Shown here: positions 31,729 through 64,000 of the stretch, piece by piece
Layout: the number at the start of each line of letters is the position of its first letter
Numbering within the stretch: position 1 is the stretch's first letter
Origin: Otis tarda
Taxonomy: Eukaryota > Chordata > Aves > Otidiformes > Otididae
Length of the DNA: 64,000 nucleotides
Assembly: GCA_026413225.1 (NCBI GenBank)
Contig: CM048552.1
Coordinates: forward strand, 1,012,001-1,076,000
Reading direction: 5' to 3'
Translations under genes and position numbers: made by a program
Notes under the pieces: model-generated
Told to the model about the DNA's origin: nothing
Databases searched by the model: none
What the model saw: the letters and a program-made list of their open reading frames with translations, nothing else

Positions 31729-34700
31729 TCATCTCTTCCCGGACAGCCACCAGCTGCTGTGAGCCGACTGTTTCGTAATGGCTTGCTTCTCTTCCGGGCT
31801 GAAGTGCAGAATAGTCAATATGGCCGTCAGCGTCTGCTGGCGGCCCAGGAAATCCGGCAGCGTCAGGAACCTGTAGACAATGTTTTTGAGGTACTCCAGG
31901 TTGGCTCCCTCCCTGCTCTTATCTCTGAAATTCTTCTGGATTTCGCTCTGAAGCACGGAAACCTCCTCCCGGTGCTTCTCCTCCTCAATCAAGATTTTCT
32001 CCTGGAGCTGGTGAACTTGCATTTCCAGCTTGTGCTTCTGCTTCCTCAGCGCCACGATTTCCACTTCTTTGCGAGCCAGCTGCTCCGCGTACAAGATGAA
32101 GGTGGGCTCGCTGGCGGCGGAGAGGCGGAGAGCCTGGGGGAGGATCTCCGAGGAGTCGTTCCCTGGCGAGTCACTGCTAGGAAGGTCAGTCCCTGATGCC
32201 AGGTAGTTTTTGGATCCTTGAAGCCCGTAAGGCAAGGCGAGAGACCTCAGCTGCTCCAGCTCCTGGTCCTTTTCCGCCAGCACCGCCAGAGCTCGGTCCC
32301 GCTGCTTGTGCATCTCCTCCTCCAGCTTCAGCGCCCGCTCCCTGTAGTCCAGCTGGCACCGCTCCAGTTCCTGCCTGTGAATTTGCTGTAGCTGGGACAG
32401 CTCTTGCTTCTTGGCTTCCACGTCTTGCTGGTGCCGCTTCTCCATCTCGTCGGAGGAGAGCTGAAGCACGACGTACTTCTCTTTCAGGTCGGCCAGCTGC
32501 TCCTGAGCTTCCTCCAGTTCTTTAGCCAGATTGCCGTCTTTGGCTGACTTGTTCTTGAGAACCACTTGCGCCCTCATCTTGTACCTCTCAAACTCCTCCT
32601 TCAGCTGCTTCAGCTCCTGCTGGTAGTACAGAGCAGTGGCCTTCTCGCCATCCCCAGCCTCAGTGCCCTTTGGCAGCTCCAGCTCACACAGCTTCTCGAC
32701 GTCCAGAGCGGGCTGGCTCTTCTTAGCCGCCGCCTGCAAGAGCTTCTTCAGCTTCTCCATTTTATCCTTCAGAACGTTGACATCGAGATTGGCTTCTTCG
32801 ACGTGAATATCAAGAGGGGATCGGCTGGAGGCCGCGATGGCCAGGGTTTTGTTCTCCAGGTCCAGCTGGACGAGGCGGTCCTTCAGCTTCTGAATGACGG
32901 CTTGGTCCTTCTGCTTGGCTTTTTCGTAAGTGCCCAGCAGCTCGGAGACTTCGGAGACTTGGCCCTCCAAGTCGGCCACTCGCCGCTCCTCCATCTGGGC
33001 GCACTGGCGGAGCTGCTCCTCCACCTGCGCGGTCTGGGAGCGGAGAGACACGGGAGGGTTAGATCAGCGCAACGCTCCGGGGGGGTCTGCGGCTTACAGG
33101 GGGTTAATTCTGCTCCGCTCAGCTCCCAACCGGCGCAGGGCTATCCCTTCCCCGTGAATCCTACGCGAGCCGCCACGCTGACCTGCCTTTTCAGATATTT
33201 GCTCATTTGGGGATAAAATAAAGCAAAAGCGTTTTCGCTTCTGTTCGCTGCTCTGCGGAGCTCCTCGCGCCAGCGCGCCCTGCCCCGCTGTAGGTGCGGG
33301 GGGTGGGACGCAGCCAACCCGCCTCACAACCTGCGACAGGAATTTTTAAAAACGCGCGTGCGCTCTAAAGCCTTCATGCATCTAAGCTGCGTCTCACCTC
33401 AGCGCCACGCTCGGCTGCGCTGACGTTAACATAGCGCAGCGGTTTCTGAGTAGCAAACGCCTGCTGCTCACAGGTCCTTCAGTCTGAGGACAACGGCGGC
33501 GCTCAATAATTAACACTGTGAACTGCAACGCAGCCAGAGCCAGTCCGCTCCAGCTCCGTCACAGAGAAGCCGTTAGAGACCACCCAAAAACGGGGGAACT
33601 GCATTAAATCAGCCTGGTGCTTCGGGTCACAAAGGAGAAAACTCGCTCCTGACCGCAAGGAGACGAGGCAGATCCCGTTCCAGGCGCAAATTCGGTTACC
33701 GGTGCCAACCCCCGGGCGCGCTGCCCCGCAGCCCGCAGAGTTACGCGGGTTCCTCTCTCCCGCCGCACCCCTCTTCCCTAGCTCTTCGCTCTCCCCGGCC
33801 CGCGCGCAGCCAGAGCCCTTCTCCCGCGTTTACCCTTCCTCCTTCCCTACAGCGCCCGGAGCTCCACCGAAGCTCCACAAGCAGGTTTTATTTTCCCCAG
33901 CGACCACCACCCCATCAAAGCCACGATGCTCTCATTTATCTCAACCCTCTCTGACTCTGCGGGACCGGGAAGGGGAATTTGCTCCCCTCCAGCCTGCACC
34001 CCACCCCGATCGCTGCCGGGACACCGCACAGAGCGAGCTGCTACAGGGCCCAGGCAGGGAATTACCTTCCTCATCTCCTGCAGCAGCTGCGCTTGGAAGT
34101 GGTTCTTCAGGCTGGCCATCTCCTCCTGCAGGTCCTGCACGCGGGGGTCCGGCTTGCCGTTCTCCTCCTGAACGGCCTGCAGCTCTCTCTTCAGCTCTTC
34201 CACCTCCCGGCTCAGCTGCTTGACGCGCAGCTCGTAGCCCTCGGCGCGGTCGGCCGCGCACGCCCGCCCGGCCAACGCCTCCCTGGTCTCCTCCAGCTTC
34301 AGCTCTGCGTCCTGGCGCAAAGTCCTCTCGTTCTGCAGCAGCTTCTGCAGCTCTCGCAGCATAAGAGCGTGGTCGCCCTGCTCCTGCGCTCGGTCGTGCT
34401 GCTGCGCAATCAGACGGGCTTTGGTCTCGGCGAGCTGCTCCTGGACACACTTCAGCTCCGTCTCCAGCTTCTCGGTCTCGTCCTCTGCTTTCTTAACGGC
34501 GTCGTCCAGGTCCTGCTTCATCTTCCTCTTGTCTGCTTGGTAGGAGGCTTCCATGCGGGACTTCTCCTGCGTGACTGTTGACAGAGCGCTGGTCAAGGTG
34601 GCCAGCTGGCTCTTCAGCTGGAGCACTCTTTTATCGCCCTCGCCGGCGGCCGACGACACATCCCCGCCGCTCGCGCCGACGCCGCTCTCAGAGCCGCTCG

Positions 34701-35100
34701 TCTCCTCTGATTTAAGAGAGGAGGCGGCGGGCCTGTCGGCCTCGGGCCCCGCGTCACCCTTGCTGCTGGCCAGACTGGCAGCGGTGTCCGCGCTGGTGGC
34801 CGTCCCCGCGCTGTCTTCGCTGTGAACCGAGCTCCTGTCGTCGGCGGCATCGGCGAAGGAAGCGCCGGAGCCAGGCGCAGGCTGAGCGCCGCTCGAGCCA
34901 ACGTCGGCCTCGTGAGACACGGACAACACCTTCAGGCTGGCTTCCAAGGCCTCCTTCTCTTTGAGCAGGCTCTTGTAGGCCCTGACGACGTCCTTCAGCC
35001 GAACCTGGTACTGCAGCAGCTGCTTCTTCTGCGACTCAATCGTCTCCAGGAGGTCTTTTTTACTTGGGCCGCCTCCAAAGTTCATGCCGAACTTCTCCAT
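31729..35100 (-). CDS. GCC1: GRIP and coiled-coil domain-containing protein 1 (GCC88), complete
   Basis: Peripheral golgin of the trans-Golgi network; its C-terminal GRIP domain binds Arl1-GTP and the coiled coils help tether endosome-derived carriers. Two coding exons, 34066-35100 and 31729-33033, join in phase to 779 residues (775 in human). The exon holding the ATG starts at 35112 after a CAG acceptor, and a non-coding first exon ends at 36202. The protein starts MEKFGMNFGGGPSKKDLLET, as in human GCC1. A Ser/Ala/Asp-rich stretch follows at roughly residues 70-155. Then comes a long heptad-rich coiled coil with blocks such as EKSRMEAS, AQEQGDHALMLRELQKLLQ and GEKATALYYQQELKQLKEEF. The GRIP domain, near residues 715-765, contains NLEYLKNIVYRFL with the conserved Tyr, then GRQQTLTAILTILHFSPEEK. 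The open frame continues 5' of the ATG, but only by reading back through the acceptor, so the ATG at 35100 is preferred. Confidence 0.96.
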
Positions 35101-35322
35101 GATCCACGCAACCTGAAAGGAGAAAAACAGCACAGAGGCTGAACGAGCAGCAGAGATTTATTTTCCATCAGCAGGCGGCTAAGCGGGACCACCCTCCCGA
35201 ACCCCCCAGGACACCGCGCCGCTAACGACTCTTTCGGGGGTCCCCAGGGCCTCCTGCCACTGAGGGGTGGGGTGTCGGCGCCAGGGGCCGGAGAAGCCAT
35301 GAGAGGGGAGTACGGGTGGGTC

Positions 35323-36646: not shown

Positions 36647-39860
<3,214 letters not shown>

Positions 39861-40665
39861 CCGGGCCGGCGGCACGGGGACCGGACGAGCCGGGGACGTC
39901 TCTCCCAACTGCTGTTTCCTTTGGTTTTCCCTGGTTTATTTGGGGAGGGGGGGGGCTGTGTTTTTCCTTTCTCCCCAGAGTGGCCTCGCCTCCGGTAGGA
40001 CTTGAACCTCGAGGACTGTTCGGGCAGCTCCGCTTCCCGGTGCCCTGCCTTCGCCCCCGCGGCGCTGCGTGCCGGCCGCCCTCCCCACCTGCATGCGTCG
40101 TCTGCCACAGCTTGCCCGGCTCTGCTGAGGTGGCACGTCCCCGAGCGTCCCTGCCGGCGTGGCACGTCCCCGAGCGGCACGTTCCCAAGTGTCCCTGCCG
40201 GCGTGGCACGTCCCCGAGCGGCACGTTCCCAAGTGTCCCTGCCGGCGTGGCACGTCCCCGGCGGCACGTTCCCAAGCGTCCCTGCCGGGGTGGCACGTCC
40301 CCGAGCGTCCCTGCCGGGGTGGCACGGCCGCAAGCATCCTTGCTGGGGTGGCACGTCCCCGAGCGTCCCTGCCGGGGTGGCACAGCCCCGAGCGTCCCTG
40401 CTCCTCGCCTGGAGCCGGCGGCGGGGGCTGAGCGGCGCTGGGAGGCAGGGACAGGAAGGATGGACCCTTTTATCCTCCCGGAAGCATCACGGTTCTCTTT
40501 CTCCTGGGGAGGGGGCGTGTGGCCGCGCACCGTGCTGTCGCACAGCGAGACATTAAACGCCACCACTTTGTACTCTGCGCGGCGCCCGTCTCCGGTGCCG
40601 CCTCCCAGCCCCGCGCCTCTGCCGCCGGCATCCCGGGGCGCGGGGGTCCAGGCCTCAATAAACCC
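39861..40665 (+). other. ARF5: ARF5 3' UTR with tandem repeat and two poly(A) signals
   Basis: Follows the ARF5 stop. At about 40128-40410 it contains a 29-44 bp tandem repeat of GGCACGTCCCCGAGCGTCCC units, several with an inserted GGCACGTTCCCAAGTGTCCC. Poly(A) signals are ATTAAA at 40552-40557 and AATAAA at 40657-40662; the second is canonical and probably the main one. Confidence 0.8.
40128..40410. repeat. GGCACGTCCCCGAGC tandem repeat in ARF5 3' UTR
   Basis: About eight tandem copies, 29 bp in the short form and about 44 bp in the long form. All contain TGGCACGTCCCCGAGCG or a close variant followed by TCCCTGCCGG. If transcribed, ARF5 mRNA would carry this array. Confidence 0.88.
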
Positions 40666-43576
40666 AACGTGCGCTGCGCTGGGACGCAGAGGAGGCGGGC
40701 AGGGGCTCCGGGATGCGTTCGGGATGCGTTTGGGAGCTGGGTTCTCCGTCCCCTGGTGCCGTGCCAGGGTCCGTGCTGCCTCAGCGCCGCGCTCGCTGCT
40801 GGTCCCGGGGAGCCGGGGCCGCACTGCGGGGAAGCCCTGCGGGGTCAGCTCAGGCTGCAGCAGCGCTAATTGGGTTGTAATTAGTGGGACTGGGCAAGGC
40901 CAAGGGTTTGGCAGCCCAGCGGCGGCCGTGCTCCGGTAGCGAGGGGCCGAGCTGCGGGCACCGGGGAGAAGGAGGAGCGGAGTGGTCCCAGGCGCTGCCC
41001 CCAAAAAGCCGAGGGCGGCGGGAGCATCCATGGGGACCGGCAGCAGCAGCCCCCTGCACCCAGCAGCGTGCTGCGTCGGGGGGACCAGAGCCCCCTCGCC
41101 TGGCTTTCGGAGAGCCGGGGGGCAAAAGGACAGCCGCTCGCCGCCAAATCATTTGCCGCCCCATTTAGCACCAGTTCCTCCAGTCCGGCCTGCCCATCGC
41201 CCTCAGGATGAGATGCTGCGCCCTGGAAATGCCAGCTGTACGGCCGGGGGTGTCCCGGTGGCACCGGCCGTCCCCACGGCACCGACCGTCCCTTTGCCAC
41301 CAGCCAGCCCTGTGGCACCGACCGTCCCTTTGCCACCAGCCACCCCTGTGGCACCGACCGTCCCGGTGGCACTGACCGTCACTGTGCCACCAGCCACCCC
41401 TGTGGCACCAACCACCCAGTGTCACCGACGGCTGCCACCTCCGAGCCATGGTCCCAGAGCGCGGGTGCCGCGATGGCCTCTGCAGCCCTGCCCTGCCCAT
41501 TCCCCACGGCCCCGCTGCCGGCGGGCGCCCGGCTGTGCCGGTGTCCCCTCTCCTCCCGCCGTGCGGCCCGGACGCGTCCCCTCGGCCACGCTCGCGTCCC
41601 CTCGGCGCTGCTGGTGCCGCAGGAACCCGGAGGCGGGAGCTCGCTGCCCGCTCGCGTCTCCAGGAGGGGTTTGCAAAATTTGTCAGTGCCCAGGGCACTG
41701 CATGGAGTCACAGCAAAGGGTGGGGGGCACCCAGCGCCCCCCTGCACCCCAAAACAGGGAAGCAGCCCCCCACCACACCACGGCTGCCGGCGAGGGCTCT
41801 CTGCGGTACGAGCTGCCGAAGGGCTTGGGGGTCCTGCCCTGCGCCCCCTCCCCGCGGCCGGGCACCCCGCTGGCTCCCAGCGCCCCGCAGCGTTTCGGGG
41901 GCCCCAGAGACCCACCCCCACGGGCAGCCCCCGCAAGCGAATCCCACACGGTGCGAACGGGCGCATCGGCAGCAGTGTCCCGTGCCGGCCGCTGGCCCCC
42001 GCCGCGGTCTCTCCTGGCAGGTCCGGTAATTTTGGTTTTTAAACATTTTGGCAGGGCTGGGTACGAAATCGTGGCGGTGCCACGGGGCCTGGGTGCCGGT
42101 GAAAAACGCAGCCGGACCCGGCCGGGTCGCTCCGTGTTTCCGGAAGAAGAAGGCTCCTCCGGAGCTGCCGTGGAGCGTTTGGAGGTCTCGGACTCCAGCG
42201 GGCGTCTCACAGCCGACCGCGGCTGCAGCTTCGGGTGCCGCCGGCCAGCGGTGGCCGCCGCACGTGCCGTGAGTTGGGCAGGTCTCAGCCCGGCTCTCCG
42301 CAGCGTGCTGCCCCGGGCCCAGGACGCTGCCGCAGCTCGGACGGACAGGCGGCCGAGACGAGGTGTGTTGGTGTCAACCGGCAGCGGCGTCCTCAGACCC
42401 GAGATTTTTGCGAGAACGATGGGGATAACGCAGCTGCCTACTCCTGGGACGGGTTTTTTGTACTTAGAAAAACCTGTAGAACGTTTTTCTCTTATAGAAA
42501 TTACTTTTTCTTGCTTAAAAAGACTCAAAATAAGCTGGAGCCTGACATTGTCCTGCGGAAGAGGGGCCCCCTGTGCTGCCCGGCCAGCGATGGGCGCCTT
42601 TACCCCGGCTCCACCCTTAAATTCAGCTCCTGATCAACCGGAAACCCCAAACTTTTACGCAGAGCGAGGATCGGCTGGCACCCGTCGGCTCTGCGAGCTG
42701 ATGGTGGAGGGAGCGGCGTGGGATCCAGGATGGCTGTGCTGCGCGGTCCTGCTCACCGATGTCCGGATGTCCGGATGCCGGGATTGAGCTCAAGCGATAT
42801 CGCAACTCGGGGGCTCGCCAGCGATTGCGGGGGGCGCAAACCAGCCAGGGCGAACCTTTTCTGGCTTGCCCGTCCCGGTTTCCCGGCCAGAAGCACTCCC
42901 TCCGGGATGGAGCTTTCTCCGGAGGCGCCAGGAAAAGCCCCCATTTAATTAATGGGGGTGTCCCCTGTTTCCGACAGCCCCCCGAGGAGAGGCGTCGAAC
43001 CGGGGTTAATTAACTTCTCCCAGGGTAATTAACGGTATTGTAACGAGGAGGGGGAGCAAAGCTTGGCGTGGAGGGAGGGATGCAAACTGGGGGAAGCGGG
43101 GCAGTGAAGCTGCCCACCCTTCCGCAGCATCCCAGGGGATGGGGCAGGGGCACGGCGCTGGGGACGGTGACAAACGCCCCGGTGTGACGTGGGGGGGTCC
43201 CAGAGGCACCCGGCTCCCCACCGCCCGACCCCAACCGCAGCCCCGGGGACGTGGTTGTGTCCCCACAAACCGCTCGAGGCAGCTGAGGAAGAGGCCGGGG
43301 GCGTCCAGCACGGAGCGGCCAAAATCCCGACGGGACGGACGCGGGTGGGCATCACCCCCCCATGTGCCCGCATGAGCCCCGGTACCCCAAACCCGGGCGG
43401 TGCGGTGGGACGCTTTCACCCCGGCACCCACCCCTTCTGCCCCGCTGGACCCCAGGAGGGTGATGGGGGGTCCCTCACCTCCAAAGGGGCTGAGGTGGTC
43501 CCGGTGAGGTGACGGTGGCCCGGCTGTCACCGACCTGCACCCGCTGCGCCGGAGCCCCCCGCTTCGCCGGGGCCCC
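40666..43576. other. ARF5-PAX4 intergenic region, FSCN3 position
   Basis: In human, FSCN3 lies here. I looked for fascin beta-trefoil blocks (for example the conserved GKYW and GGRYL type strands) in all frames and saw none. The stretch holds a 36 bp tandem repeat (41258-41415), an AT-rich island near 42455-42535 and, close to PAX4, three TTAATTAA or TAATTAA sites (42945, 43006, 43026). Open frames across it are repeat- or composition-driven. Confidence 0.55.
41258..41415. repeat. 36-bp minisatellite
   Basis: About four copies of a 36 bp unit: CCCCTGTGGCACCGACCGTC followed by CCTTTGCCACCAGCCA. Outer copies are degenerate. The length is a multiple of three and leaves an open plus-strand frame reading VAPTVPLPPA repeats, which I do not regard as a gene. 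Confidence 0.85.
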
Positions 43577-46500
43577 TCAGAGGCAGGGGCACCCCGGCGC
43601 GTGGAGGCGGGCGAGGGGCTGGGGCGAGCCGGCGTGGAGCGGGGGGCTCGGCGGGGGCCCGCGCAGCAGGCTGGCCGCGGGGGGCAGCTGGGCCCGGGGG
43701 GCAGCAGGGCGAAGGGGGGGCTCTCCAAGGGCTGCCAGGGTCCCGGAGGGGGGCTGCCGCCGGGGGCCAGGCCTGCGGGACGGAAAGGGGGCTGGGGCGG
43801 CGCGGGGGGAGCACCGCCCACCCCACGTCACCCCCCCCTCCCCGGGGGTCCCGCACCCCGCCGCCACCACCCACCCCCGCCCCGCTCCCGGCCCTTTTAC
43901 CGCAGCAAGCGTCGTCCCAGGCGCGGGGGTCGGGGGTGCAGAGGTGCAGCGGGGCCGGGGGGCTGCGGTAGGCGGCGAGGCCGTGGCCGTGACCGCCGAG
44001 GGGCTGCGGGGGGGGGGGGGGGGGGGGCGAGATGTCACGGGTGGGGATGCTGAGGTGACGCTGCCGGGTCGGGACGGCTCCGGAGGGGGGGGGGGGCAGC
44101 GCCCCGGGAGCTCGGAGCAGCCGGGCAGCGGGAGTGGGGGTCCCAGAGGGTGCCCGGAGCGCGCTGGGGGGCGGCGAGCCCTCCCCGCCCCCCCCCCGGC
44201 CGCCTCCTACCTGCGCGGAGCCCGCGGCTGCGGTGGTCGGGGGGCGGCAAGCGGCCGCGGCTGCCCCGCGGGGCGGGACCCACTGGCACCAGGAGCCTGC
44301 GTGGGGAGAGGCGGGGAGGGCAGCGCCCCGGCCCTGATTTTGGGGTGCGGAGGTCCTCTCCCCAGCTCCCAGCGGGGCTCTGGAGCCGGGAAGCAAAGCC
44401 AAGCATCCCGGCGCTCAGCGCCGAATTTCAGCCCCCCCCGGACCCCGGCCCCCCTCTTTGGCATGGCGTCCCCGTCCCCTCCGTCCCCCCCCCGTCCCCC
44501 CGGGGCTGTCACCTGCGCCGCCGGCCTCCAGCCTCTGCTTGGCCTCCCGCCTCCACTTCGCTCGCCGGTTGGAGAACCAGACCTGGGGAGCAGGGGGGAG
44601 GTCGGGGCTGGCAGCCCCCACCCCGCGGCACCCGCGCCCCGGCTCCTCGCCGCAAGGCTCAGCCCCGGGACGCGGGGCACACGGCGCGGGAGACACGCGT
44701 GTGCGCGGCGTGACGGCGGCCACGGGCAGCCCCGCAGGTACTCGCTGCCAGGGCCACCATGACGGCCGGCGGTGGTCTGCGGCTGGGAGGGGAAGGGGCT
44801 GCCGCCGGCCGGTGAAGGTTTGGACGTCTGCTGGAGCTACCGAGCGTGCCCGCGGCGCGTGTGCGAGAGGCGCGTGCCGGTGTGCCCGGGGGTCTGCCGT
44901 GGTGCGTGCCACGGCGTGCCCGGGAGCATACCGTGGAGCCTACCATGGAGCATGCCACGAAACGCGCCGTGCAATTTGCCATGGTGCCACAAAACGTGCC
45001 GCAGAGTTTGCCATGGAGTGCGCCGCAGCACATGCCATGAAACATGCCATGGAGCATGCCATGGTGCGTGCCACGAAACGCGCCAGGGAATTTGCCGTGG
45101 TGCACGCCATGGAGTTTGCCATGGAGTTTGCCACGCCGTGTGCCACGGAATGTGCCATGGAATGTGCCATGGAGCGTGCCACACAGTGTACCATGAGACA
45201 CGCCACGGCGCGTGCCACGGCGCGTGCCACAGCTCTGCAGCACTGTCCCGTCCCCCCCCCGGCCCTGTGCCACCATCCCGGGGTCCAGCAGTGTCCCCAC
45301 CACGGAGCGGGGGCTGCACCGGGAGGGGGCACACAGCAGGGCAGGCGCGCGGCCAGGGCACGGGCACAGGGGCTGCGGCCGAGGAGCAGCCCGAGGGTCC
45401 CGCGCCCCCGGCCTTGCCACGGCGGACGCGAGACACCGGCGCGTCCCGACGGAGTGCGGCGCGTCTCCTCTTACCCTGATGGTCGCGTCGGGAAGTTGGG
45501 TGGCCGCCACCAGCCTCTGCCGGGTGACGAGGTCCGGGTACTGTCCCCTCTGGAACTCTGCGAGGGGGACCGGGGTGAGATCGGCCCGTTGGGCGCAGCC
45601 ACCCCGCCGGCGACGCCGGGACGCGCGGCTGCAGCCGGTCCGTGGCCGGGTGCCGGTGCCCGCAGCGCAGCAGTGGCCGTGCCACGCGAAGGGCCAGGAG
45701 CCCATCCAGAAAGCGGCGATGCCGTCCCTTGGGAATGGCCCTGCTCCGTCCCGGCGCTCCACGCCGAGCGGGGAGCCGTACCTTTCTCCAGGGCCTCCGA
45801 CTGTTGGCTGGAGAAAACCGTCCGGTTCCTGTGCCGGGCGCTCAGCGGGAGCCGCTGGGTCCCCGGGGAGACGGCGGCGGTGGCACCGGCTTCGGCGGGC
45901 GAGCCGGGGGGGTGCGAGGCAGAGAGAGCGGCGAGGGGGGACACTGCGGGGACAGAAAGGCAGAAATTTTGGGGGTTCCCAGCTCTGGGGGCACGGGGTC
46001 AGTGTGGGGAGGAGCCGTGCGCACGCACACGCGTGTGTGCATGCGGATGCGTGCGCAGCCGGGAAGCCAACTGGGAGCAGGGGGCTCTCGTGGCGCGTCA
46101 CCCCCGGCAAAGCTCACCCCGGGGCGGCGAGTCCCCGGCGAAACCCCGCTCAGCCGCCAGCCGCAGGTGGCTCGGCAGGGTCCTCAGCACCCGGTTGATG
46201 GAGGAGACCTGGGAGGGGAGAGACGGGGCTGCGCCGCGGGCGGGGGGCATCGGGCAAAGCCCCCGTGGCGGCGGGCAGCCCTCCGCTCGCCACAGCGGCC
46301 GGGGACGTCGGCTCGGGGAGGCGTCGAGGCGGGGAGCGACCGAAGCCGACGCCCCAAAGCGCGGCCCCGAGGTGCCCTCCCGCCGCCGTGCCCGAGCACG
46401 CGCCGCCGATTCTCCGCAACCCTTTAATTTTGGCGGCGCCCTGACGCCGGAGACGACGGCCGAGCTCGCTGGGGACGCGGCTCTGCTTTAGCTGGGAGCG

Positions 46501-47511
46501 AGCGATTTTCTCCCCCCGCCGTCTCAGCGAGCGTCCTCCCCGCCGCCCCCTCGCCCACCCCGCAGCACCCCGGCCGCGGGGCCCGGACGCCGGCCCAAGC
46601 ACGCGGCCCCGGCGTGGCGGCGGCGAGGACTCACGCTGGGGGTCCGGTCGCTGGCGCAGACGCCTTCAGCGCGCAGCTGCCGGCGGATCTCCCAGGCGAA
46701 GAGCGAGGGCCGCTCCCGCTTCAGCTGGGCGATCCTGGCCACCACCTCGGGGGTGGCCATGCGGGGCTTGCTGCCCCCCGCCGCCATGGGCTCCACGGCC
46801 CCCGTCCGGTAGTAGCGGCCCAGGATTTTGCTGACGCAGCCGTTGGACACCTGCGGATGGGGCGGCTGCGGCACAGGCTCAGCAGGAACAGGATTTGGAG
46901 GGGGAACTCCCCCACCACCACCCGGGACCCTCCGACGCCGGCGCACCTTGAGGCTGCGGGAGATGTCGGAGGTCCGCACGCCGCACGCCGCCAGCTCGAT
47001 GATCCGCTGCCTCTTGCAGGCGGGGAGGGGGCGGCCGTTCACGAAGAGCCCCCCCAGCTGGTTCACGCCGCCGGGCCCTGGGGAGAAGCCGGGGTGGGAG
47101 GGGGGTGTCAGGGACCCCCCACGCACTGAGCGGGGGTTTGCAGGGGGCAGGAGGATTGGGAGCGATGTGGGGCTGGTTGCTGGGGTGGGGGTGCAGGCAG
47201 GGAGCGGGGGGACGCTGGCAGGAAAAATTCCCGGTGGAGGAGCACGGGGAGAAGCGGGGGGACTGGCTGGGGGGGTGAGAAGCACTGGGGGGCCGGGGGG
47301 CCCCGGGTTTATCAGCTTCTAGCACCCAGTGTGGGGGGAAAAGCAGCCCCGTTGATGGGGCGGGGGCTGACGCGGCACCTCCCCAATTCCCCCGGGATCG
47401 CGGACACCGGGATCGCGGACACCGGGATCATGGATACTGGGCTCGCGGATGCCGGCACCGCGCTCCCCGAGCCGCCGCGGCGCAGCAGCACGGCTCACCT
47501 CGGTGTTGCAT
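43577..47511 (-). CDS. PAX4: Paired box protein PAX4 (complete model, about 389 residues)
   Basis: Pax4/6-class transcription factor; in mammals it specifies pancreatic beta and delta cells and mainly represses. Exons in transcript order: 47499-47511, 46947-47077, 46635-46850, 46118-46208, 45782-45943, 45475-45557, 44513-44582, 44211-44296, 43901-44003, 43577-43791. All are GT-AG and in phase. Exon 1 codes MQHR plus one base. The paired domain runs from [15 protein letters not shown] through [20 protein letters not shown] and [20 protein letters not shown] to [12 protein letters not shown]. The homeodomain runs from [20 protein letters not shown] to [18 protein letters not shown], with Ser at position 50 as in Pax proteins. 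Exons 1-7 are firm. Exons 8-10 (Pro/Ala/Cys-rich, ending APGCPCL) rest on splice sites and phase only. A longer last exon from an acceptor at 43772 to a stop at 43006 is an alternative. Position between ARF5 and SND1 supports PAX4 over PAX6 or PAX10. No internal stop was seen. Confidence 0.93.
44008..44027. repeat. 20-base G homopolymer at a PAX4 splice acceptor
   Basis: Twenty consecutive G on plus. On the transcribed minus strand this is a C20 tract ending in GCAG, the polypyrimidine tract of the acceptor for the exon at 43901-44003. Confidence 0.9.
44870..45235. repeat. 12-bp GCCATGGAGNNT minisatellite in PAX4 intron 6
   Basis: About 30 tandem 12 bp units of the form GCCATGGAGTTT, GCCACGGAATGT, GCCATGGAGCGT and so on. 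Most carry CCATGG or CATGCC, so the array is rich in short palindromes. It lies between the two homeodomain exons 45475-45557 and 44513-44582. The unit length keeps frames open on both strands; these are not genes. Confidence 0.9.
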
Positions 47512-48360
47512 GGCGAGGCTTCTCCGGGCGCGTTCGGTGCCTGGGAATCGCCAAGCGGAGTCAGCGGCCGTCGTGAGGCCGGATAAACCGGTGACGGCGT
47601 CGGGGGCTCGGCCGCGGCCCCTGCCCGCCGTCCCGCAAGGAGAAGGGAGAGCACGGGCAGGGGATGGAAACGCTCCATCGTGTCGGGATGCTTGGGAAAT
47701 CGTCGCGCCCCAAGCCCAGCCGGGGTTTGAAGCGCTCGCTCGGGCGCCGGAGCAGCCGGCGAGATGCCGGGAACGCGGCCGGCGCCCAATGGCGCGCAGC
47801 AGAGCCGGCTTGGCTGGGCCGTGTCCCCATCGCTGCCTGCGCTCCCTCGGAGAACCCCCGAGGGACGGAGGGTTTCCCGGCGCGCCCACCCCGCCGGGGT
47901 CCCGCGCGGCGTCGGAGGGGCTGGAGGTGGCGGGAGACGGGGAACGGGGAGCTCCGGGTGCGCGTGCAGCGGCTTGGGTGCCGTCCGGGAGCCGTTTGCC
48001 ACCCGCTTTAACCCTTCCCTTGCATTCCCTCCCAGGTTAACCCGGGATTTCACCCGAAACACCCCAAAAACTCCTGGACACCCCCCAGCGCAGGGCTGTC
48101 CCCAAATCCCACCGCTTCCCCGCGACGGCTCGGGAACGGCGTTCGGAGACGCACGCGTGCCGGAGAGCGGGTGCAAATTGGGTGGGGGGGGGAGGGGGGT
48201 ACCTGCGGTGGGTCCGTCGAAGCCACGCGGGTGCTGCTGCCGGCGCGGGGCGGCTGGTGAGGGAGCGGGGCCGTGATGTCACGGGGCAGGAGGAAGAGGA
48301 GGATGGGGAGGAAGGGGAGGCCAGATGGGGAATGAGTGGCCGCGCCCGGGGTAAATCCGG
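47512..48360 (-). promoter_or_regulatory. PAX4: PAX4 5' flank
   Basis: GC-rich sequence upstream of the PAX4 ATG. No TATA box was placed. It includes three near-identical 17 bp copies of GGATCGCGGACACCG or a variant on the far side (47395-47450, intron 1). No other gene was recognised. Confidence 0.4.
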
Positions 48361-48431
48361 GTCGGGGGGTTCCGTCGGGGCTCGGGGCCGGCTCTTTGAG
48401 CCGGCCCCGAGCCCCGACGGAGCCCCCCGAC
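48361..48431. repeat. Near-perfect 34-bp inverted repeat (hairpin, 3-base loop)
   Basis: Arms 48361-48394 and 48398-48431 pair over all 34 positions except one T-G (48370 with 48422), around a TTT loop. The centre reads GGCCGGCTCTTTGAGCCGGC. It lies about 0.85 kb upstream of the PAX4 start codon. It matches no transposon end I know, and target-site duplications are not obvious. Confidence 0.92.
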
Positions 48432-48574
48432 CCAGGGAGTGATTCAGTACCGGTGTTGCCGTCGATATTCCAGCCGCAACACCCAGCATTCCCAGTATCC
48501 CCCGACGTTCGCTCCCACGTCTCCCATCAAGCGAAACAGGGACGGACAGATGGGATTCAACCATCAATCCAGAT

Positions 48575-48970: not shown

Positions 48971-49489
48971 CGACGGGGCCCCGGCCTGGCCCCCCGGGAC
49001 CCCCCGCGCCGCCCCCGCGCGCTCCCCCAAACACCCCCCTCCTCCGCTCCACCCGCTCGTGTCCTCCCGTGGGGTCGGGGTCTCGGTGAGGGGGCGGCGC
49101 TGGCAGACCCTTGGACCCCCCCCCCGGCTCCATCCCGGCCCCCGGGGAGCCCCGACGGAGCCCCCGCGCCGGGGGGGCCCCGTGCGTAACGCGGCGGGGA
49201 GGGGGGCGCGGGGCGCAGCCCTGGGGCGGGGGGGGCCTGGAGGAGGGGAGAGGCCCCGCTGCTCCCCCCCCCACCCCGGGAGCGGCCGGGGGGGCGGCGG
49301 GAGGGGAGGGGGGGGCCGGGAGCGGGGAGCGCGGCCCCTCGGGGATGGGCGCACCGGGTGCGGCGCGGCGGCGGCGGGCGCGGCGCACGGGGAGGGGCGG
49401 GGGCGGGGGAGCTCAGCGGGCGAGGGACCGGAGGAAACGGGGGCAGGGAGACCCCCGGGGAGAGGGGAGGGAGGTGCGGGCCTGGGGAG

Positions 49490-50752
49490 AGGTGGAGGTG
49501 GAGCTGGAGAGGTGGAGAGGTGGAGATGGAGAGGTGGAGATGGAGAGGCGGAGATGGAGATGGAGAGGTGGAGATGGAGACGTGGGGAGGTGGAGATGGA
49601 GAGGTGGGGAGGTGGAGAGATGGAGAGGCGAAGATGGAGAGGTGGAGAGGTGGAGGTGGAGAGGTGGAGAGGTGGAGAGATGGAGAGGTGGAGATGGAGA
49701 GGTGGGGAGGTGGAGATGGAGAGGTGGGGAGGTGGAGAGGTGAGGAGGTGGAAATGGAGAGGTGGAGATGGAGAGGTGGAGATGGAGAGGTGGGGAGGTG
49801 GAGAGGTGGGGAGGTGGGGAGGTGGAAATGGAGAGGTGGAGATGGAGAGGTGGGGAGGTGGAGAGGTGGGGAGGTGGGGAGGTGGAAATGGAGAGGTGGA
49901 GATGGAGAGGTGGAGATGGAGAGGTGGAGAGGTGGAGATGGAGAGGCGGAGATGGAGATGGAGAGGTGGAGATGGAGAGGTGGGGAGGTGGAGATGGAGA
50001 GGTGGAGATGGAGAGGTGGAGATGGAGAGGTGGAGATGGAGAAGTGGAGAGGTGGAGATGGAGGGGTGGAGATGGAGGGGTGGAGAGGTGGAGAGGTGGA
50101 GAGATGGAGAGGTGGAGAGGTGGAGATGGAGAGGTGGAGATGGAGATGGAGAGGTGGAGATGGAGAGGTGGAGATGGAGATGGAGAGGTGGAGATGGAGA
50201 GGTGGGGAGGTGGAGATGGAGAGGTGGGGAGGTGGAGAGATGGAGAGGCGAAGATGGAGAGGTGGAGAGGTGGAGGTGGAGAGGTGGAGATGGAGATGGA
50301 GAGGTGGAGATGGAGAGGTGGAGATGGAGAGGTGGAGAGGTGGAGAGATGGAGAGGTGGAGAGGTGGAGAGGTGGAGAGGTGGAGAGGTGGAAATGGAGA
50401 GGTGGGGAGGTGGAAATGGAGAGGTGAGGAGGTGGAGAGGTGAGGAGGTGGAAATGGAGAGGTGGAGATGGAGAGGTGGAGATGGAGAGGTGGAGATGGA
50501 GAGGTGGAGAGGTGGAGATGGAGAGGTGGAGATGGAGAGGTGGAGAGGTGGAGATGGAGAGGTGGAGAGGTGGAGATGGAGAGGTGGGGAGGTGGAGAGG
50601 TGGGGAGGTGGAGATGGAGAGGTGGAGAAGTGGAGATGGAGAGGTGGAGAGGTGGGGAGGTGGAGAGGTGGGGAGGTGGAGATGGAGAGACCGAGAGACG
50701 GAGAGGTGGAGATGGAGAGACGGAGAGATGGAGAGATGGGGAGGTGCAGAGA
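49490..50752. repeat. 1.26-kb hexamer-based array (GGTGGAGATGGAGA)n
   Basis: An array of 6 bp words (GGTGGA, GATGGA, GAGGTG and variants) with larger 12-30 bp patterns. The plus strand is almost only G, A and T. It keeps both strands open for more than 350 codons (for example a plus frame over 49059-51044 and a minus frame over 48959-50767); these frames are artefacts. Confidence 0.95.
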
Positions 50753-51194
50753 CGCGCCAGGCCTCATGGTTCTCTCTCTCCATTCAGCCCTTCCTGCTCA
50801 TCTCCTCCCATCCACTGTCCTCCCGGCTCCGGGAAGAGCTTTCTGCAGACGTTTCTCCTGCGCCGGGCAGTGCAGCCCAGCGGATCTGGCGTTACGGATT
50901 TGTCCCTCCACAGCACGCGGGGGTGCCCGGGGACAGAGAGGGTTTGGGGGTGGTGGCCCCGGCGTGCGCCGCCATGGCCGTGCCTCCAGCTGCACCCAGA
51001 GCTGGCACCCTTCGGGCAGCACCCACACCCCGCCGGGCGTGTAGGTGTGATGTCCGGGGAGGGGCCGGAGGGGCCAAGCTGGGGTGCTGGGGTGGCCTGG
51101 GAGGGGTGGGGATGTGGAGCTGCCCTCAGGCAGGAGAAGAGCTCGGTGCTGCTCTGGGGCAGGACGGGGATACGGGGCTTCCCAGAGGAAGGAC

Positions 51195-51815
51195 AGGGAT
51201 GCTGAGCATCCCAGGGGGAGGATGAGGATGTTGTGCATCCAGAGGAAGGACAAGGATGCTGAGCATCCCGGGGCAGGATGAGGATGCTGAGCATCCCAGG
51301 GGGAGGATGAGGATGCTGAGCATCCCGGGGCAGGATGAGGATGCTGAGCATCCCGGGGGGAGGATGAGGATGCTGAGCATCCCGGGGGCAGGATGAGGAT
51401 GCTGAGCATTCCAGGGGCAGGATGAGGATGCTGAGCATCCCGGGGCACGATGAGGATGCTGAGCATCCCAGAGGAAGGACAAGGATGCTGAGCATCCCGG
51501 GACAGGATGAGGATGCTGAGCATCCTAGGGGGAGGATGAGGATGCTGAGCATCCCGGGGCACGATGAGGATGCTGAGCATCCCAGGGGGAGGATGAGGAT
51601 GCTGAGCATCCCAGGGGCAGGATGAGGTTTCTGAGCATCCCAGGGGGAGGATGAGGATGCTGAGCATCCCGGGGGCAGGATGAGGTTTCTGAGCATCCCA
51701 GGGGGAGGATGAGGATGCTGAGCATCCCAGGGGCAGGATGAGGTTTCTGAGCATCTCAGGGGGAGGATGAGGATGCTGAGCATCCCGGGGGGAGGATGGG
51801 GATGCTGAGCATCCT
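51195..51815. repeat. 28-30-bp minisatellite with a palindromic core
   Basis: About 21 units of GGATGAGGATGCTGAGCATC followed by CCAGGGGGA, CCCGGGGCA or similar. Each unit contains GGATGCTGAGCATCC, a 7 bp inverted repeat around one base, so every unit can fold by itself. Units near 51610-51760 alternate with a GAGGTTTCTGAGCATCC variant. Confidence 0.95.
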
Positions 51816-52315
51816 CGGGGTAGGAGGGGGGTGCTGGGCTGCCTGGGTTTCCAGCAGCTGGCACAGGGTGGTCCGGGGACCCCCAGGGACCCCCCCCCAG
51901 TGGCCCGGGGACCTCTCTGGCTGCTCAGCTCCCGACCGTACGAGCCATCGCGGCGCCAGCCTGCACACAGGGTGACCGGTGGGCACCGCAGCGTCCCCCC
52001 TCCCCCGCTCCTGACCTTCCCGGCCGCCGGGAGAGCTCTCTCCCCGGGACCCCCCTTCCCACCTCCACTCCGGGCCCCGCCGCGGGCTGGGCGCAGGATG
52101 AGCTTGGCGTGAGCATGGCACGGGCGTGGCAGGAGCCCGGCGCAGCTCCCTCTGCGCCCAGGGAACGCCCTGCCCCTCACCGGCAAGTACCGGGGGCACC
52201 TAGGGCGGGCTGGGCCCAGGGAGCTGCTCACGTGGAGGGAGAACGAGGGGAAGGGGACGGGGATGGGGATGGGGAAAGAGAAGGGGAAGGTCTCTCCCCG
52301 AAGCCATTGTCACTC

Positions 52316-52678
52316 CGTCTGTCTCCATCTCCATCTCCATTTCTGTCTCCATCTCCATCTCCATTTCTATCTCCATCTCCATCCCCATCTCCATCTTCAT
52401 CCCCATCCCCATCTCCATCGCCATCTCCATCTCCATCCCCACCCCATCCCCATCTCCATCTCCATCTCCATACCCATCTCCATCCCCATCCCCATCCCCA
52501 TCTCCATCTTCATCCCCATCTCCATCGCCATCTCCATCTCCATCTCCATACCCATCTCCATCCCCATCCCCATCTTCATCCCCATCCCCATCCCCATCCC
52601 CATCTCCATTTCCATCTCCATCTCTGTCTCCATCTCCGTCTCCATCTCCATCGCCATCTCCGTCTCCATCTCCTCCTT
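52316..52678. repeat. (CCATCT)n hexamer array, copy 1
   Basis: Hexamers CCATCT, CCATCC and CCATTT in tandem. On plus this is the reverse complement of the word set of the 49.5-50.75 kb array, so the two lie in opposite orientation. Frames rich in His, Leu and Pro or in Met and Glu across it are not genes. Confidence 0.95.
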
Positions 52679-53126
52679 CTGACGCAGCTTTCAGCTCTGG
52701 CTGATAACGACATCCACGTCGACAGAGGCCAACTGGATTTCTCTAAGGTGTTTGACACGGCACGGCGCGGCGGTTTGATTAAAGCCCCCGTTACGTGAAA
52801 TTAGGCGAGCGCACGTTAGGCAGATGAGAAGCTGGCTCTGCACCAACGGAGCCAGCCCGCAGCCGGGTCCGGCGCAAAGCCCTGGGATGCCCCGGGATGC
52901 CTGGGCTGTGGGGGACGTGGAGCCACCGGGCGTTTCCAGGAGGAGACGAGGGTGGACTGGAAAGCTTTCCTGGGAGAAGCGGCCCCGCTGTGCCAGCGGC
53001 CGGCCGGCACCACCGCGCCCGGGCTGTGCCTCTCGGCCGCGCCGCCCCCGCCCCAGTGACTCGCCAAACGCCCGGCTCCATGTCGCGTTAAAATGTCACG
53101 AAATATTGACAGGCTCTGCACTGAAA

Positions 53127-53261
53127 TACAGCCCGGGTGCTCCGCCGGCACGGGAAGGACACGGTGACGGCACCCTGCCGACCTGGGGCACGGAGCTTTG
53201 GGGTTGGGATGGACAGGCAGCAGCGACGGGGCCAGGTCCCTCCCTGGGGACCTGAATTTCT
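53127..53261. repeat. Direct repeat of about 135 bp, left copy
   Basis: This segment begins CAGCCCGGGTGCTC and ends with GGTCCCTCCCTGGGGACCTG then AATTT. It is repeated, diverged in its first half and almost identical in its last 75 bp, at about 53737-53873, on the other side of the CCATCT array. Confidence 0.85.
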
Positions 53262-53740
53262 ATCTCCATCTATCTCCATCTCCATCTTCATTTCCATCCC
53301 CATCTATCTCCATCTCCATCTCCATCTCCATCTCCATCTCCATCTCCATCTCCATCTCCATCTCCATCTCCATCTCCATCTCCATCTCCATCCCCATCTC
53401 CATCTCCATCACCATCTCCATCTTCATCGCCATCTCCATCTTCATCGCCATCTCCATCTCCATCTTCATTTCCATCTCCATCTTCATCGCCATCTCCATC
53501 TTCATCTTCATCCTCATTTCCATCCCCATCTATCTCCATCTCCATCTCCATCCCCATCTCCATCTTCATTGCCATCTCCATCTTCATTTCCATCTCCATC
53601 TTCATCTTCATCTTCATCTCCATCCCCATCTATCTCCATCTCCATCACCATCTCCATCTTCATCCTCATTTCCATCCCCATCTATCTCCATCTCCATCTC
53701 CGTCTCTGTCTATCTCCATTCCCATCTCCATCTCCATCCA
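53259..53740. repeat. (CCATCT)n hexamer array, copy 2
   Basis: The same hexamer family as the array at 52316-52678, including a pure CCATCT run at about 53299-53390 and CTATCTCCATCT interruptions. It is flanked by two copies of a duplicated segment of about 135 bp. Confidence 0.95.
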
Positions 53741-56767: not shown

Positions 56768-59700
56768 ATGGCCTCCGCGGCCGCCCCCGGGCAGGGCGGC
56801 TCCGCGCCGCCCCTCGCCGTCCAGCGCGGCATCGTCAAGATGGTAAGGGCCGTGCCCGCCCGCCGCCGCGCCCCCGGGGCCTCGCTGCGCTCCGCCCGCC
56901 GCCTGCACCCGCCGGGGCCCGGCCTGTGCCGGGGACTCCCCCTGCCCCCGCCGCTGCCCGGGCCCCCCCGTGCGGGCCCCTCCGGTCCCGGGACCCCGCT
57001 CTGCCGCCCGGAGCCCCCTCCGGTGCTGGGACCCCTGTGTGGGCCCCTCCGGTCCCGGGGACCCCCGCCCCACACCCGCAGCTCCCACCGGTGCTCGGGA
57101 TCCCCCCTACTCGCAGCAGTGCCCGGGACCCCCCGCAGACCCCTCCGGTACCGGGGACCCCCTGCCCCACGCAGCCCCATCCGGTAGTGGACACGACTTC
57201 CCCCCCTCCGGTGTCCGGGACCCCCATCCGACCCTGGCAGCCCCCTCCGGTGTCCGGGACCCCCCTCTTTTGCAGCCCCAGCAGCCCGGACCCCCTTTCT
57301 GCGCCCCGGGAATCTGCCCCCTTCCCCCCAGGGCGGGGGGTGCTGTGCCCGGGGACCCCCACCCCGTGCTGGGGCCAGGGGCAAGGCTGGTGCGGGGTGG
57401 GGGTCCGTACGACCCCCGCCACCCCCAGGTCCCCCCGCGTGCACCGGTGACCGCTCTCCTGGGGGGGGGGCGGTGGTCCCGCTGTGCTGCCGGCTCCGAA
57501 ACCCCAAAAAAGCTGGAGACTCCCCAACGCCGTGAGCGGGGATGTCCCGTGGGGACACAGCCGGGGGGGATGTCCCACCTGCTCCCCCCCCCCCGCCATG
57601 TTCCCGTGGGGGGACGGGGTCCCCGAACCCCTCCCCGTCGTGTCCCCCGGTGTGCCTGGAGGGCGCAGGCTGGGATCCGGCGGCTCCCGCTGGGATCGGG
57701 CCCTGGGATGGCGTCCGGGTCCCCGCGTTCCCTCCTGGCACCGGTCGCCTCAGCACGGAGCCCGCTGGAGGTTTTGGGGACAGAACCGGAGGTTTGGGGA
57801 CCTTGGAGGTTGGGGTTCCCCGCTTTAGCTCACCGGCGGCGCGGGGAACCGTTCCGGCCTCTCCGCGCTGTCTCGTGCCCGCCAAGCAAATTTTGGGATT
57901 CTCAGGGCAAACCTTGCCTGGGCGCTGGCGCCGGCTCCGGCGGAGGGGCCGCGGATCCGGAGCGTGATTTTGGGCAGGGCGGTTGGCGTCTGCCGGCGGA
58001 GGGGCAGCCGGCTCCCGGGGGGCCGCGCGCCGCCCCGGGCCTGGGGGGTGATCCCCTTCCCTTTCCGGGCCAACCGTCCCAAAATCCGGGCACGCCGGAG
58101 AGGTGGGGGGTCCCCGACTTCCCGCCGGCCCCGCTCTGCTTGGCGGTGCTGCCGGAGCGGCGCCGGCCGCGCGCCCGCTGCGGTTCCTGCTGCAACTTTT
58201 GGAACTTGCAAGGTTTTTGGGGGATTTTTTTTTGCACCTTCCTGACGCACGATATCCCCCGAAATCACAGCGGGGGCTGCAAAAGTTTGGGAATGGGGAG
58301 GGGGCTCGTCCTGGCAAGGAGGGAGAGCGGGAGCGGGGATGGGGCGGGGGTGGGAAGAGGCACCGGGAGCCGGGATGGGGCGGCAACAGGCTCCTTCCTT
58401 TTGGGGGGCTTGAGGAGTCCCGGGTGGGTACGGCTGGGCTCGGGGCTCCGGCTCCGCTCCGGGACGTCGGTGACGGGGCTGGAAGGAGCGCGGCGCAGCG
58501 TGGCGCGGCCATGACCGACGACACGGGGACCCGCGGCTCGGAGCAGAGCTGGGGCTCCGCGCGGGCGAGTCCGGAGGTGGAGGGAGAGCCGGGCCACCGG
58601 CCGGCGCCGTGGGACCCTGCCGTCGCGTTGTCACCCTCCGTCCCGTTCCTGCCGCCTCTGCGCCCCGCGTTTGCGGCTGTGCCACGGGAGCCGGGGAGCA
58701 CGGAGCGGCTCTGCTAACGAACCCGTCCCCTTCCCGGGATCCGGGGTTTGCGCTGGTGGTTGGATAAAACGGTTACGGCGTCGGGCTTCTTTCCGCGCGC
58801 CCGTCAATTAAAGCTGAGCGTTAATTACAGCGATGAAGCCTCTGGGTCCGTAAGCAGCGAGCGCTGAGGTTTGCCGGGGGATCGCCGTGCGCGCGGCTCG
58901 GGCTGGATGCGAAGCTCGATTCTCCGGAGCTCCCGCGGCGTGCCGGTCTCCGCCGTGGCCCGGGCGCGCGAGGCGGCAAGCGTGGTGCCGCCAGACCCTC
59001 GGAGTCGGCGCGGTGGGGCGCGTTTTGGCGAGGTTTGGCGCGAGCCGGCGTCCCGCGGTACGAGTCCTCTGGCTTCGGGACGCGCTGTGAGCACCCGTGG
59101 GGATTTTGGGTGGGAAACGGGCCAGGGCGCGTGCCGAAATCCAACCCGGAGGCTTTCCTGCGAGCGCTTCGGCGGCGTCGGCCCGCGTTGCCGGGAGCCG
59201 GTGCCGGTTGAAACGGGACCAGGGTGATTCCGGGAGCCCGGCTCGGCGGCCGGAGGGGGCCCCGCTGGCGCCGTGGGGTCTCGCACGGGGACGGAGCCAT
59301 TGAGAAACGCTGGGGTGCGTGCGCGGTGGGGCGACGCCGGTGACGGTGATCGAGTCGGGTGCGAGGAGGAGGGCTCCGGTTTGGGTCTCCGTCACTTTTG
59401 GGGACTTTTCCCGGCGGATTTTCTCCGTACGGGTTTATTTGACGGCAGCGCAGTTGCTGGACGAGGTCACTGCCCCTGGGCGCGGGGTGCGGGCAGCCCA
59501 ACGCCTGTGACCCCTCGCTCCCGGCGGATCGGATCCCTGGAAAAAAGGGACCCCCCCGTAACCCCCCTGTCTCCCCGCAGGTGCTGTCGGGCTGCGCCAT
59601 CATCGTCCGCGGGCAGCCCCGAGGCGGGCCGCCCCCCGAGCGCCAGATCAACCTCAGCAACATCCGCGCCGGCAACCTCGCCCGCCGCGCCGCCGCCGGC

Positions 59701-62472: not shown

Positions 62473-64000
62473 GTACGTACGCGCTGCGTCCCCGCGCTGC
62501 CCCGCTCAGCCCCGTCCTGCGCCGTTATTTCCCCGGGCGTGGAGCCCTTGGGTTCCTCGGCTTTGGCCGGGCAGCGCTCCTGCTCCGGGGCTCTCTGCGG
62601 TGCCCGGATTTTGCCGACATCGGCGTCCCAGGATGGTGACCCCTTGTTTTTAGGGTTGTGGTTTGGAGGGGGAGCCGAGTGCCTCCTTCCCCTGGATGCT
62701 GACGCACCAAAGCTGCGACCTTGGGCTGCAGAGCAGAAAAAAATCCTCTGAAGCTCGTGGTCGCTGGGAAATAACGCCTGGCGTGGAGCCGGGGTGCCGG
62801 AATTCGTGCTGGAGAGGCGACGTTCCTGCCCCCCGCCCTACACCCGGGCGGTGCGGTGCTTGCGCGCCGGTGCCGCGGGAGCCGATGCCGATCATTTGCC
62901 GTGGCCCCGTGTCCTGGAAAAGCCTGGCCGCGGCTGGGGTGTGCCCGCATCCCCGTGCACGGCCCCGGGCGCCGCCGGCTATCCGGTTCCAGGGGGCGCG
63001 AGTGGTTTCTGTGCCGCCGCTATAAATACCGGCCGGACGCTATTTCCAGCCCGGCGCCTGCTGGGCTGGAAGCTCGCCCGTGTCGCTTCCTAAAACCGTT
63101 CTGGCACGCTTGGATCCTTTCCACCCCGTGTTTTGGGTAGCGCAGCCCGTGAACGGGTACGCTGAGTGAACGGAGCGCGCGTTGCCAAGGGCGTGGACGG
63201 GTTATTTTGTGCCCAGGCTTGCCCGGTGCCGGCGGGTCCTGCCCAGGGGTGTGGTCCCCGTCCCGAGCCCGTGGGGTCCGCGCTCCCTGCCTGGTGCTGG
63301 TGGGCTCTGGGTGCCCTTGGCGGGGTTCAGTGGCTCTGCTTGGGCACAGTCGGGGACCGCCACAGGGCAGCGATGCCTGGGAGAGGCGTGACAGCCACCG
63401 TGCCCGTGCCGGAGGGGCCGGGGGCGAGGAACTGCCGGGAGAGCAGGCGAGGAGCCGGAACCGACAGCGTTTGTGGGACGAGTGGGGTTCAGCCGGGCTC
63501 GGCTCTCACCGCCGAGGTTCCCCGCCTCCTGCGTCGCGGTGGAATGAAGGGGAAAGCCGGGGAGGAGCCGGTCACCGCGGCCCCTGGGGTGACGGCGCGA
63601 CAGCAGGGCGATGCCGCTGCCGCACGCTCCATCGCCGGCGCGACGGGGCTGGCGCAGGGCGGTTGGCACGCAGCGGAGCTTCCCGCAATTGCGTATCGCC
63701 TGGAGCGCGTCGCCGCTCCGCCTTTGCGCTCCTAATTCTGAGGGCACGTTAATTAACGGGTGTGTGAGGTGCCTCTCAGCTCCTCGAGTCGGGCGCTCCT
63801 GCGGGGAATTTGGGACTCATCCGGTTGCGTGTTGTCCCGAGCTGGAACACGAGTATCACCGGATTTGTTTAAGGGGTTAGGATGGCGCTGGGAGGGGGCG
63901 GCTGCCGCTCTCTGCGTTTCGGTGGCCGCCTGCACGCGCAGGACCGGGGACGGGCTGCGGTTTGGTACGGCACGCGAGCCGCGGACCTGGGTTTGCCATC
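62473..64000 (+). other. SND1: SND1 intron 4 (incomplete)
   Basis: Begins with GTACGTAC after exon 4. No further SND1 exon and no other gene was recognised up to the window end. Confidence 0.6.

Follow-up and report, generated by a model that had tools for sequence, protein, structure and literature searches.

The PAX4 locus and its exons

A gene identified here as a PAX4 orthologue lies on the minus strand at positions 43,577–47,511 of the window, the 64,000-base stretch of Otis tarda DNA that was analysed. The window comprises bases 1,012,001–1,076,000 of contig C1 (216 Mb) in an assembly of 1.198 Gb and 116 contigs. The exons and the neighbouring genes are located as follows (window positions).

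47,499–47,511, minus strand: PAX4 exon 1, start codon, MQHR plus G, phase 1 donor gtgagc
46,947–47,077, minus strand: PAX4 exon 2, N-terminal part of the paired domain, GC3 of 1.00 in the coding frame
46,635–46,850, minus strand: PAX4 exon 3, middle and most of the remainder of the paired domain, GC3 of 0.96
46,118–46,208, minus strand: PAX4 exon 4, end of the paired domain and start of the linker
45,782–45,943, minus strand: PAX4 exon 5, linker and N-terminal part of the homeodomain
45,475–45,557, minus strand: PAX4 exon 6, middle of the homeodomain
44,513–44,582, minus strand: PAX4 exon 7, recognition helix with Ser50
44,211–44,296, minus strand: putative PAX4 exon 8, tentative, with splice sites and an open frame, GC3 tied with GC2
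43,901–44,003, minus strand: putative PAX4 exon 9, tentative, GC3 of 0.94 in the predicted frame
43,577–43,731, minus strand: tentative last PAX4 exon in frame B, stop at 43,577
31,732–35,157, minus strand: presumed GCC1, two open pieces, GRIP domain (E 3.7e-17) in the piece 31,732–33,063
36,647–39,857, plus strand: ARF5, located by tblastn with a provisional human ARF5 sequence
59,539–62,524, plus strand: early exons of SND1, located by tblastn with a provisional human SND1 sequence; the gene runs on past the window

Exon 1 has a length of 13 bases and is assigned solely from its start codon, phase and position. Mouse Pax4 begins with MQQDGLSSVNQLGG, and the part preceding its paired domain is equal in length to that of the window gene. 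All introns between exons 1 and 9 have GT/AG ends and consistent phases. As these introns are kept, a retrocopy is ruled out.

The last exon can be reached by two acceptors in two frames, and GC3 and homology favour neither of them. With the frame-B exon listed above, the ten-exon chain encodes 369 residues. The alternative acceptor at 43,772 leads into frame A, which is open to the stop at 43,006 and gives 573 residues in all; this possible model was not adopted. If exon 7 is left unspliced, its frame terminates at a stop at 44,415, beyond the homeodomain. Thus, the DNA-binding part of PAX4 is intact either way.

The sequence-only reading of this locus had described ten in-phase, stop-free exons with GT-AG borders. 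The chain does exist at the positions listed and exons 1–7 are firm, with no disabling mutation in the assembly sequence. For exons 8–10, on the other hand, no similarity to the C-terminus of mammalian PAX4 could be detected, and the last of them has two possible frames. Ten exons are therefore shown only in part, and the exon count is better stated as seven firm and three tentative.

Neighbourhood of the gene

ARF5 and SND1, the flanking genes that had been named for PAX4, are both present on the plus strand, with GCC1 on the minus strand beyond ARF5. The name GCC1 is deduced from the GRIP domain and the position of the gene. We take the order of the mammalian PAX4 neighbours to include SND1. 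The published block, as given in the accessible text of PMC3759438, is GCC1-ARF5-FSCN3-PAX4. No fascin match was obtained in the 4 of 35 open frames scanned for FSCN3 between ARF5 and PAX4 (39,858–43,576), and all ten fascin matches found genome-wide are located in two clusters, on C15 and C19.

A single leptin match is present at C1:1,186,210–1,186,422, approximately 130 kb from PAX4. In the available text of PMC5550943, chicken LEP, ARF5 and SND1 are mapped to 1p, with the GC-rich LEP group at the tip of chromosome 1p, and the gene order observed here agrees with this mapping. The same text contains no word starting with 'PAX'.

Repeats are found in and around the gene. Much of the stretch 49,486–53,738, in the interval separating PAX4 from the earliest SND1 exons located, is occupied by tandem arrays with units of 6–29 bases, and the GC skew is strong in the PAX4-SND1 interval (0.48 at 50–52 kb). 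Upstream of PAX4, at 48,359–48,433, a GC-rich inverted repeat is formed by 36-base arms that are 97% complementary and separated by a 3-base spacer. Intron 6 of PAX4 contains degenerate tandem repeats of 12 to 36 bases (44,953–45,229; unit e.g. TGCCATGGAGCG), and a minisatellite with about 33 copies of a 30-base unit occupies positions 36,903–37,903 in an ARF5 intron. On the 3' side of PAX4, at about 42,940–43,040, palindromes of the TTAATTAA type were seen by eye amid GC-rich DNA. They resemble HNF1 half-sites. A search of the window against Rfam gave no match at gathering thresholds.

Domains and coding signal

Pfam detects one full paired domain (PF00292, profile positions 2–125 of 125, E 3.9e-56) and one full homeodomain (PF00046, profile positions 2–57 of 57, E 4.7e-19). 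These matches are not due to chance. Both domains are complete, and the motif WFSNRR in exon 7 includes Ser50 of the homeodomain, the residue that had been pointed out from the letters of the sequence. Among the best 60 of 126 matches to solved structures, the closest are the paired domains of PAX6, PAX5, PAX8 and fly Prd, followed by the homeodomain of PAX6.

Four paired-domain residues that are invariant in 9/9 other rows of the alignment are changed in this PAX4 (V23I, P32T, C33S and I64A). In exon 2 (46,947–47,077) the paired-domain motif RPCDIS is converted to RTSDIS. The cysteine lost from this motif is presumably the redox-sensitive cysteine of PAX5 and PAX8. Reading the linker translation by eye revealed no EH1/octapeptide motif between the two domains; loss of EH1 is described for Pax4/6/Ey in the accessible text of PMC4901127.

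The absence of stops from exons 1–7 (255 codons) is weak evidence when taken alone, because 88 of 2000 dinucleotide shuffles at the same GC content are equally stop-free (mean of 2.7 stops). Codon-position GC is the stronger evidence for coding. Seven of nine exons (exons 2–7 and 9) have their GC maximum at the third codon position of the predicted reading frame, exon 1 being too short and exon 8 tied. GC3 amounts to at least 0.87 in each of exons 2–7 and to 0.92 over exons 1–9, compared to a mean GC of 0.74 in the introns.

The linker, exons 8 and 9 and both versions of exon 10 align with the provisional human and mouse PAX4 sequences no better than shuffled peptides do. Across ten such comparisons, the score of the C-terminal peptide was matched by 299 to 1994 of 2000 shuffles. 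Human PAX4 and human PAX6 (provisional sequences) are 74% identical in the paired domain, but only 10% in the linker and 17% in the C-terminus. As linker and C-terminus evolve fast in the PAX4/6 family, the absent C-terminal similarity does not conflict with a functional gene.

Phylogeny and copy number

For the phylogenetic trees, the mammalian and fly rows are provisional reference sequences and the bird rows were taken from the assembly, with names of the bird PAX loci assigned by us. Using the paired domain and the homeodomain of eight sequences, the window protein forms a group with human and mouse PAX4 that stands apart from every other row with a support of 100/100. With twelve sequences this support is 99.8/100, both for the paired domain alone and for both domains (four rows with a gapped homeodomain). 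A tree constrained to join the window gene to PAX6 is worse by 45.7 log-likelihood units (AU p 5e-7), and one that places it outside the PAX4/6 group by 40.4 units (AU p 2.5e-4). The phylogeny thus places the window gene with PAX4, in line with the sequence-only reading, and the AU test rejects both the PAX6 and the basal placement. Since PAX4 evolves fast, a tree of this small size may suffer from a long-branch effect.

In the paired domain and homeodomain there are 43 diagnostic sites at which the provisional human and mouse PAX4 sequences agree with each other and differ from PAX6. The window protein is PAX4-like at 19 of these, PAX6-like at 7 and like neither at 17. Its homeodomain is identical to the provisional human PAX4 at 45/60 positions. 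The introns agree with those of bird PAX6 in position and phase at all five paired-domain/homeodomain boundaries that were compared, two of them seen from one side only; the linker intron was left out of this comparison.

Searching the genome with the protein of exons 1–9 gave 68 matches (125 of 180 candidates scored). Eight of them are the gene's own exons 2–9 and none of the others exceeds 65% identity; thus, no second copy of PAX4 was seen among the candidates scored genome-wide. A scan of genome contigs for outside relatives produced pattern matches in 126 stretches, none of which was confirmed. The 14 paired-box matches in the genome fit PAX1, 2, 3, 4, 5, 6, 7 and 9 by our naming. PAX8 was not recognised among these 14, which agrees with the report that some birds and reptiles have lost it (PMC3759438, accessible text).

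Alternative explanations

The paired domain is identical to the provisional PAX6 at 88/121 positions, which nearly equals the 92/121 shared with the provisional human PAX4, as would be expected if a PAX6 or PAX10/PAX6.2 paralogue had been taken for PAX4. Such a confusion is very unlikely, as it is contradicted by the tree and the AU test and as bird PAX6 is present at a separate locus on C6. Furthermore, PAX10/PAX6.2 is described in the accessible texts as lacking a paired domain (PMC6925180) and as adjoining RCN3-NOSIP (PMC3759438). The paired domain of the window gene and its neighbours GCC1, ARF5 and SND1 rule out an identity with PAX10/PAX6.2. It is likewise hardly conceivable that the host is not a bird or that the contig is a contamination. 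A genome search for the Pfam family 'Keratin' yielded 279 candidates, and 150/150 of those scored match. This is the family of the feather keratins, which reptile beta proteins can match too. For an alpha globin exon, the best single-chain PDB matches are chains named alpha-A; fused alpha-chain constructs outrank them because they match twice. The best matches of a beta globin exon are chains of largely the same entries. Both exons match several avian chains about equally, the matched entries being presumably those of birds. The avian identity of the keratin and globin matches thus depends on this assignment of the family and of the PDB entries to birds, which is the point in favour of a different host. 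Against it, the beta-globin cluster, with its exon closest to bird chains, is located on the same 216 Mb contig as the window, and leptin is found in the synteny reported for chicken (PMC5550943, accessible text).

A recent pseudogene would have lost its function lately, with exons 1–7 still undamaged and the C-terminus already decayed. The missing homology signal of exons 8–10, the ambiguous last frame, the four unusual paired-domain changes and the published claims of avian PAX4 loss (PMC3759438 and PMC3563606, in the parts available) are consistent with this. On the other hand, the paired domain of the bird evolved no faster than that of mammals, in which PAX4 is functional: with PAX6 as outgroup, 9 private changes are found in the bird and 8 in human PAX4, and 6 versus 7 in the comparison with mouse. 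Of 75 positions that are invariant in seven non-PAX4 paired domains, 13 are changed in the bird, 12 in human and 11 in mouse PAX4; the divergence of the bird gene thus corresponds to the usual PAX4 level. Splice sites and GC3 periodicity are intact as well. Within the family, the linker and the C-terminus evolve rapidly, though human and mouse PAX4 share 71% identity in the C-terminus (provisional sequences). In a rough neutral model with assumed indel and splice rates, the 1,110-base ten-exon chain, which includes the tentative exons, would remain intact with a probability of 0.05 at 2% divergence and 6e-4 at 5%; without indels these values are 0.27 and 0.04, respectively. A recently decayed gene is accordingly improbable. 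Most likely, the window contains the bird's own single-copy PAX4 orthologue, with intact domains, in the ancestral gene order (GCC1-ARF5-PAX4-SND1...LEP) and close to an end of the 216 Mb contig.

PAX4 in birds

PAX4 is a known gene of pancreas development, found here where it had been published as missing. In the accessible text of a 2013 survey (PMC3759438), PAX4 is absent in some birds and reptiles and its loss is concluded for lizards and birds. The survey includes a fragment from the budgerigar whose paired domain seems complete; it yielded no predictable full functional protein and was called a putatively nonfunctional relic. A zebrafish pax4 paper of 2012 treats chicken and Xenopus as lacking PAX4 and takes this in support of a late gain of its beta-cell role (PMC3563606, accessible text). 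Within the main texts of open-licence PMC papers, supplements excluded, neither an intact avian PAX4 nor a later correction was found. In the accessible texts, open-licence papers on chicken tissues name PAX4 only in references or in discussing the work of others, a zebra finch paper contains Pax4 only as a binding matrix, and in further papers it appears solely among the references or in connection with EH1 loss. Avian PAX4 records may already exist in the current NCBI/Ensembl annotation.

The locus lies near the tip of the largest chromosome in DNA with a GC content of 75%, which probably caused older assemblies to omit or fragment PAX4. The proposal that the gene is hidden and not lost, at least in Otis tarda, agrees with the intact domains, the placement in the tree and the synteny, and its restriction to one species is appropriate. 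The bird gene is found on the same branch of the tree as mammalian PAX4 and presumably has SND1 as a common neighbour. It also shares the neighbours GCC1 and ARF5 (PMC3759438, accessible text). It differs from mammalian PAX4 in its linker and C-terminus, which align with the mammalian ones no better than shuffled peptides, in the four altered paired-domain residues and in that FSCN3 was not found between ARF5 and PAX4. The budgerigar fragment, as far as it is described (PMC3759438), resembles the Otis tarda gene in its association with ARF5 and GCC1 and in its apparently complete paired domain, whereas here the paired domain and the homeodomain are both intact in one contig. With PAX6 the gene has intron positions in the paired-domain and homeodomain regions and the overall domain plan in common; it differs in its separate locus, and a grouping with PAX6 is rejected. 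Avian leptin, an unrelated protein, is a precedent for a hidden gene, as it belongs to the same GC-rich syntenic group (PMC5550943, accessible text).

According to the accessible text of PMC3563606, mouse PAX4 acts as a repressor of Arx and promotes the beta and delta cell types at the expense of alpha cells, whereas zebrafish pax4 limits alpha cells via arx repression and is dispensable for embryonic beta cells. By analogy, the product of the window gene is a putative DNA-binding repressor that would be active in endocrine progenitors, as in mouse and zebrafish, and would hold down ARX. It may thus tip cells away from the alpha and, as in mouse, toward the beta or delta fate. PAX4 and ARX may also repress each other in the bird. 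An ARX gene is present in the same genome, on C1 at 129.70 Mb, with homeodomain stretches 90–100% identical to a provisional human ARX sequence and a C-terminal tail that ends in GKEVC.

It seems fairly probable that birds as a group never lost PAX4 and that the PAX4/ARX antagonism persisted in them, hidden in the GC-rich neighbourhood of leptin. If this is true, birds can no longer be cited as animals that form beta cells in the absence of PAX4. An intact PAX4 in birds would reduce the avian support for a late beta-cell role (PMC3563606, accessible text). The finding also suggests that other calls of gene absence in birds deserve rechecking in long-read assemblies. For PAX4 itself, the window provides a precise sequence on which probes and knock-outs can be based and with which single-cell data from the islets and gut of birds can be searched.
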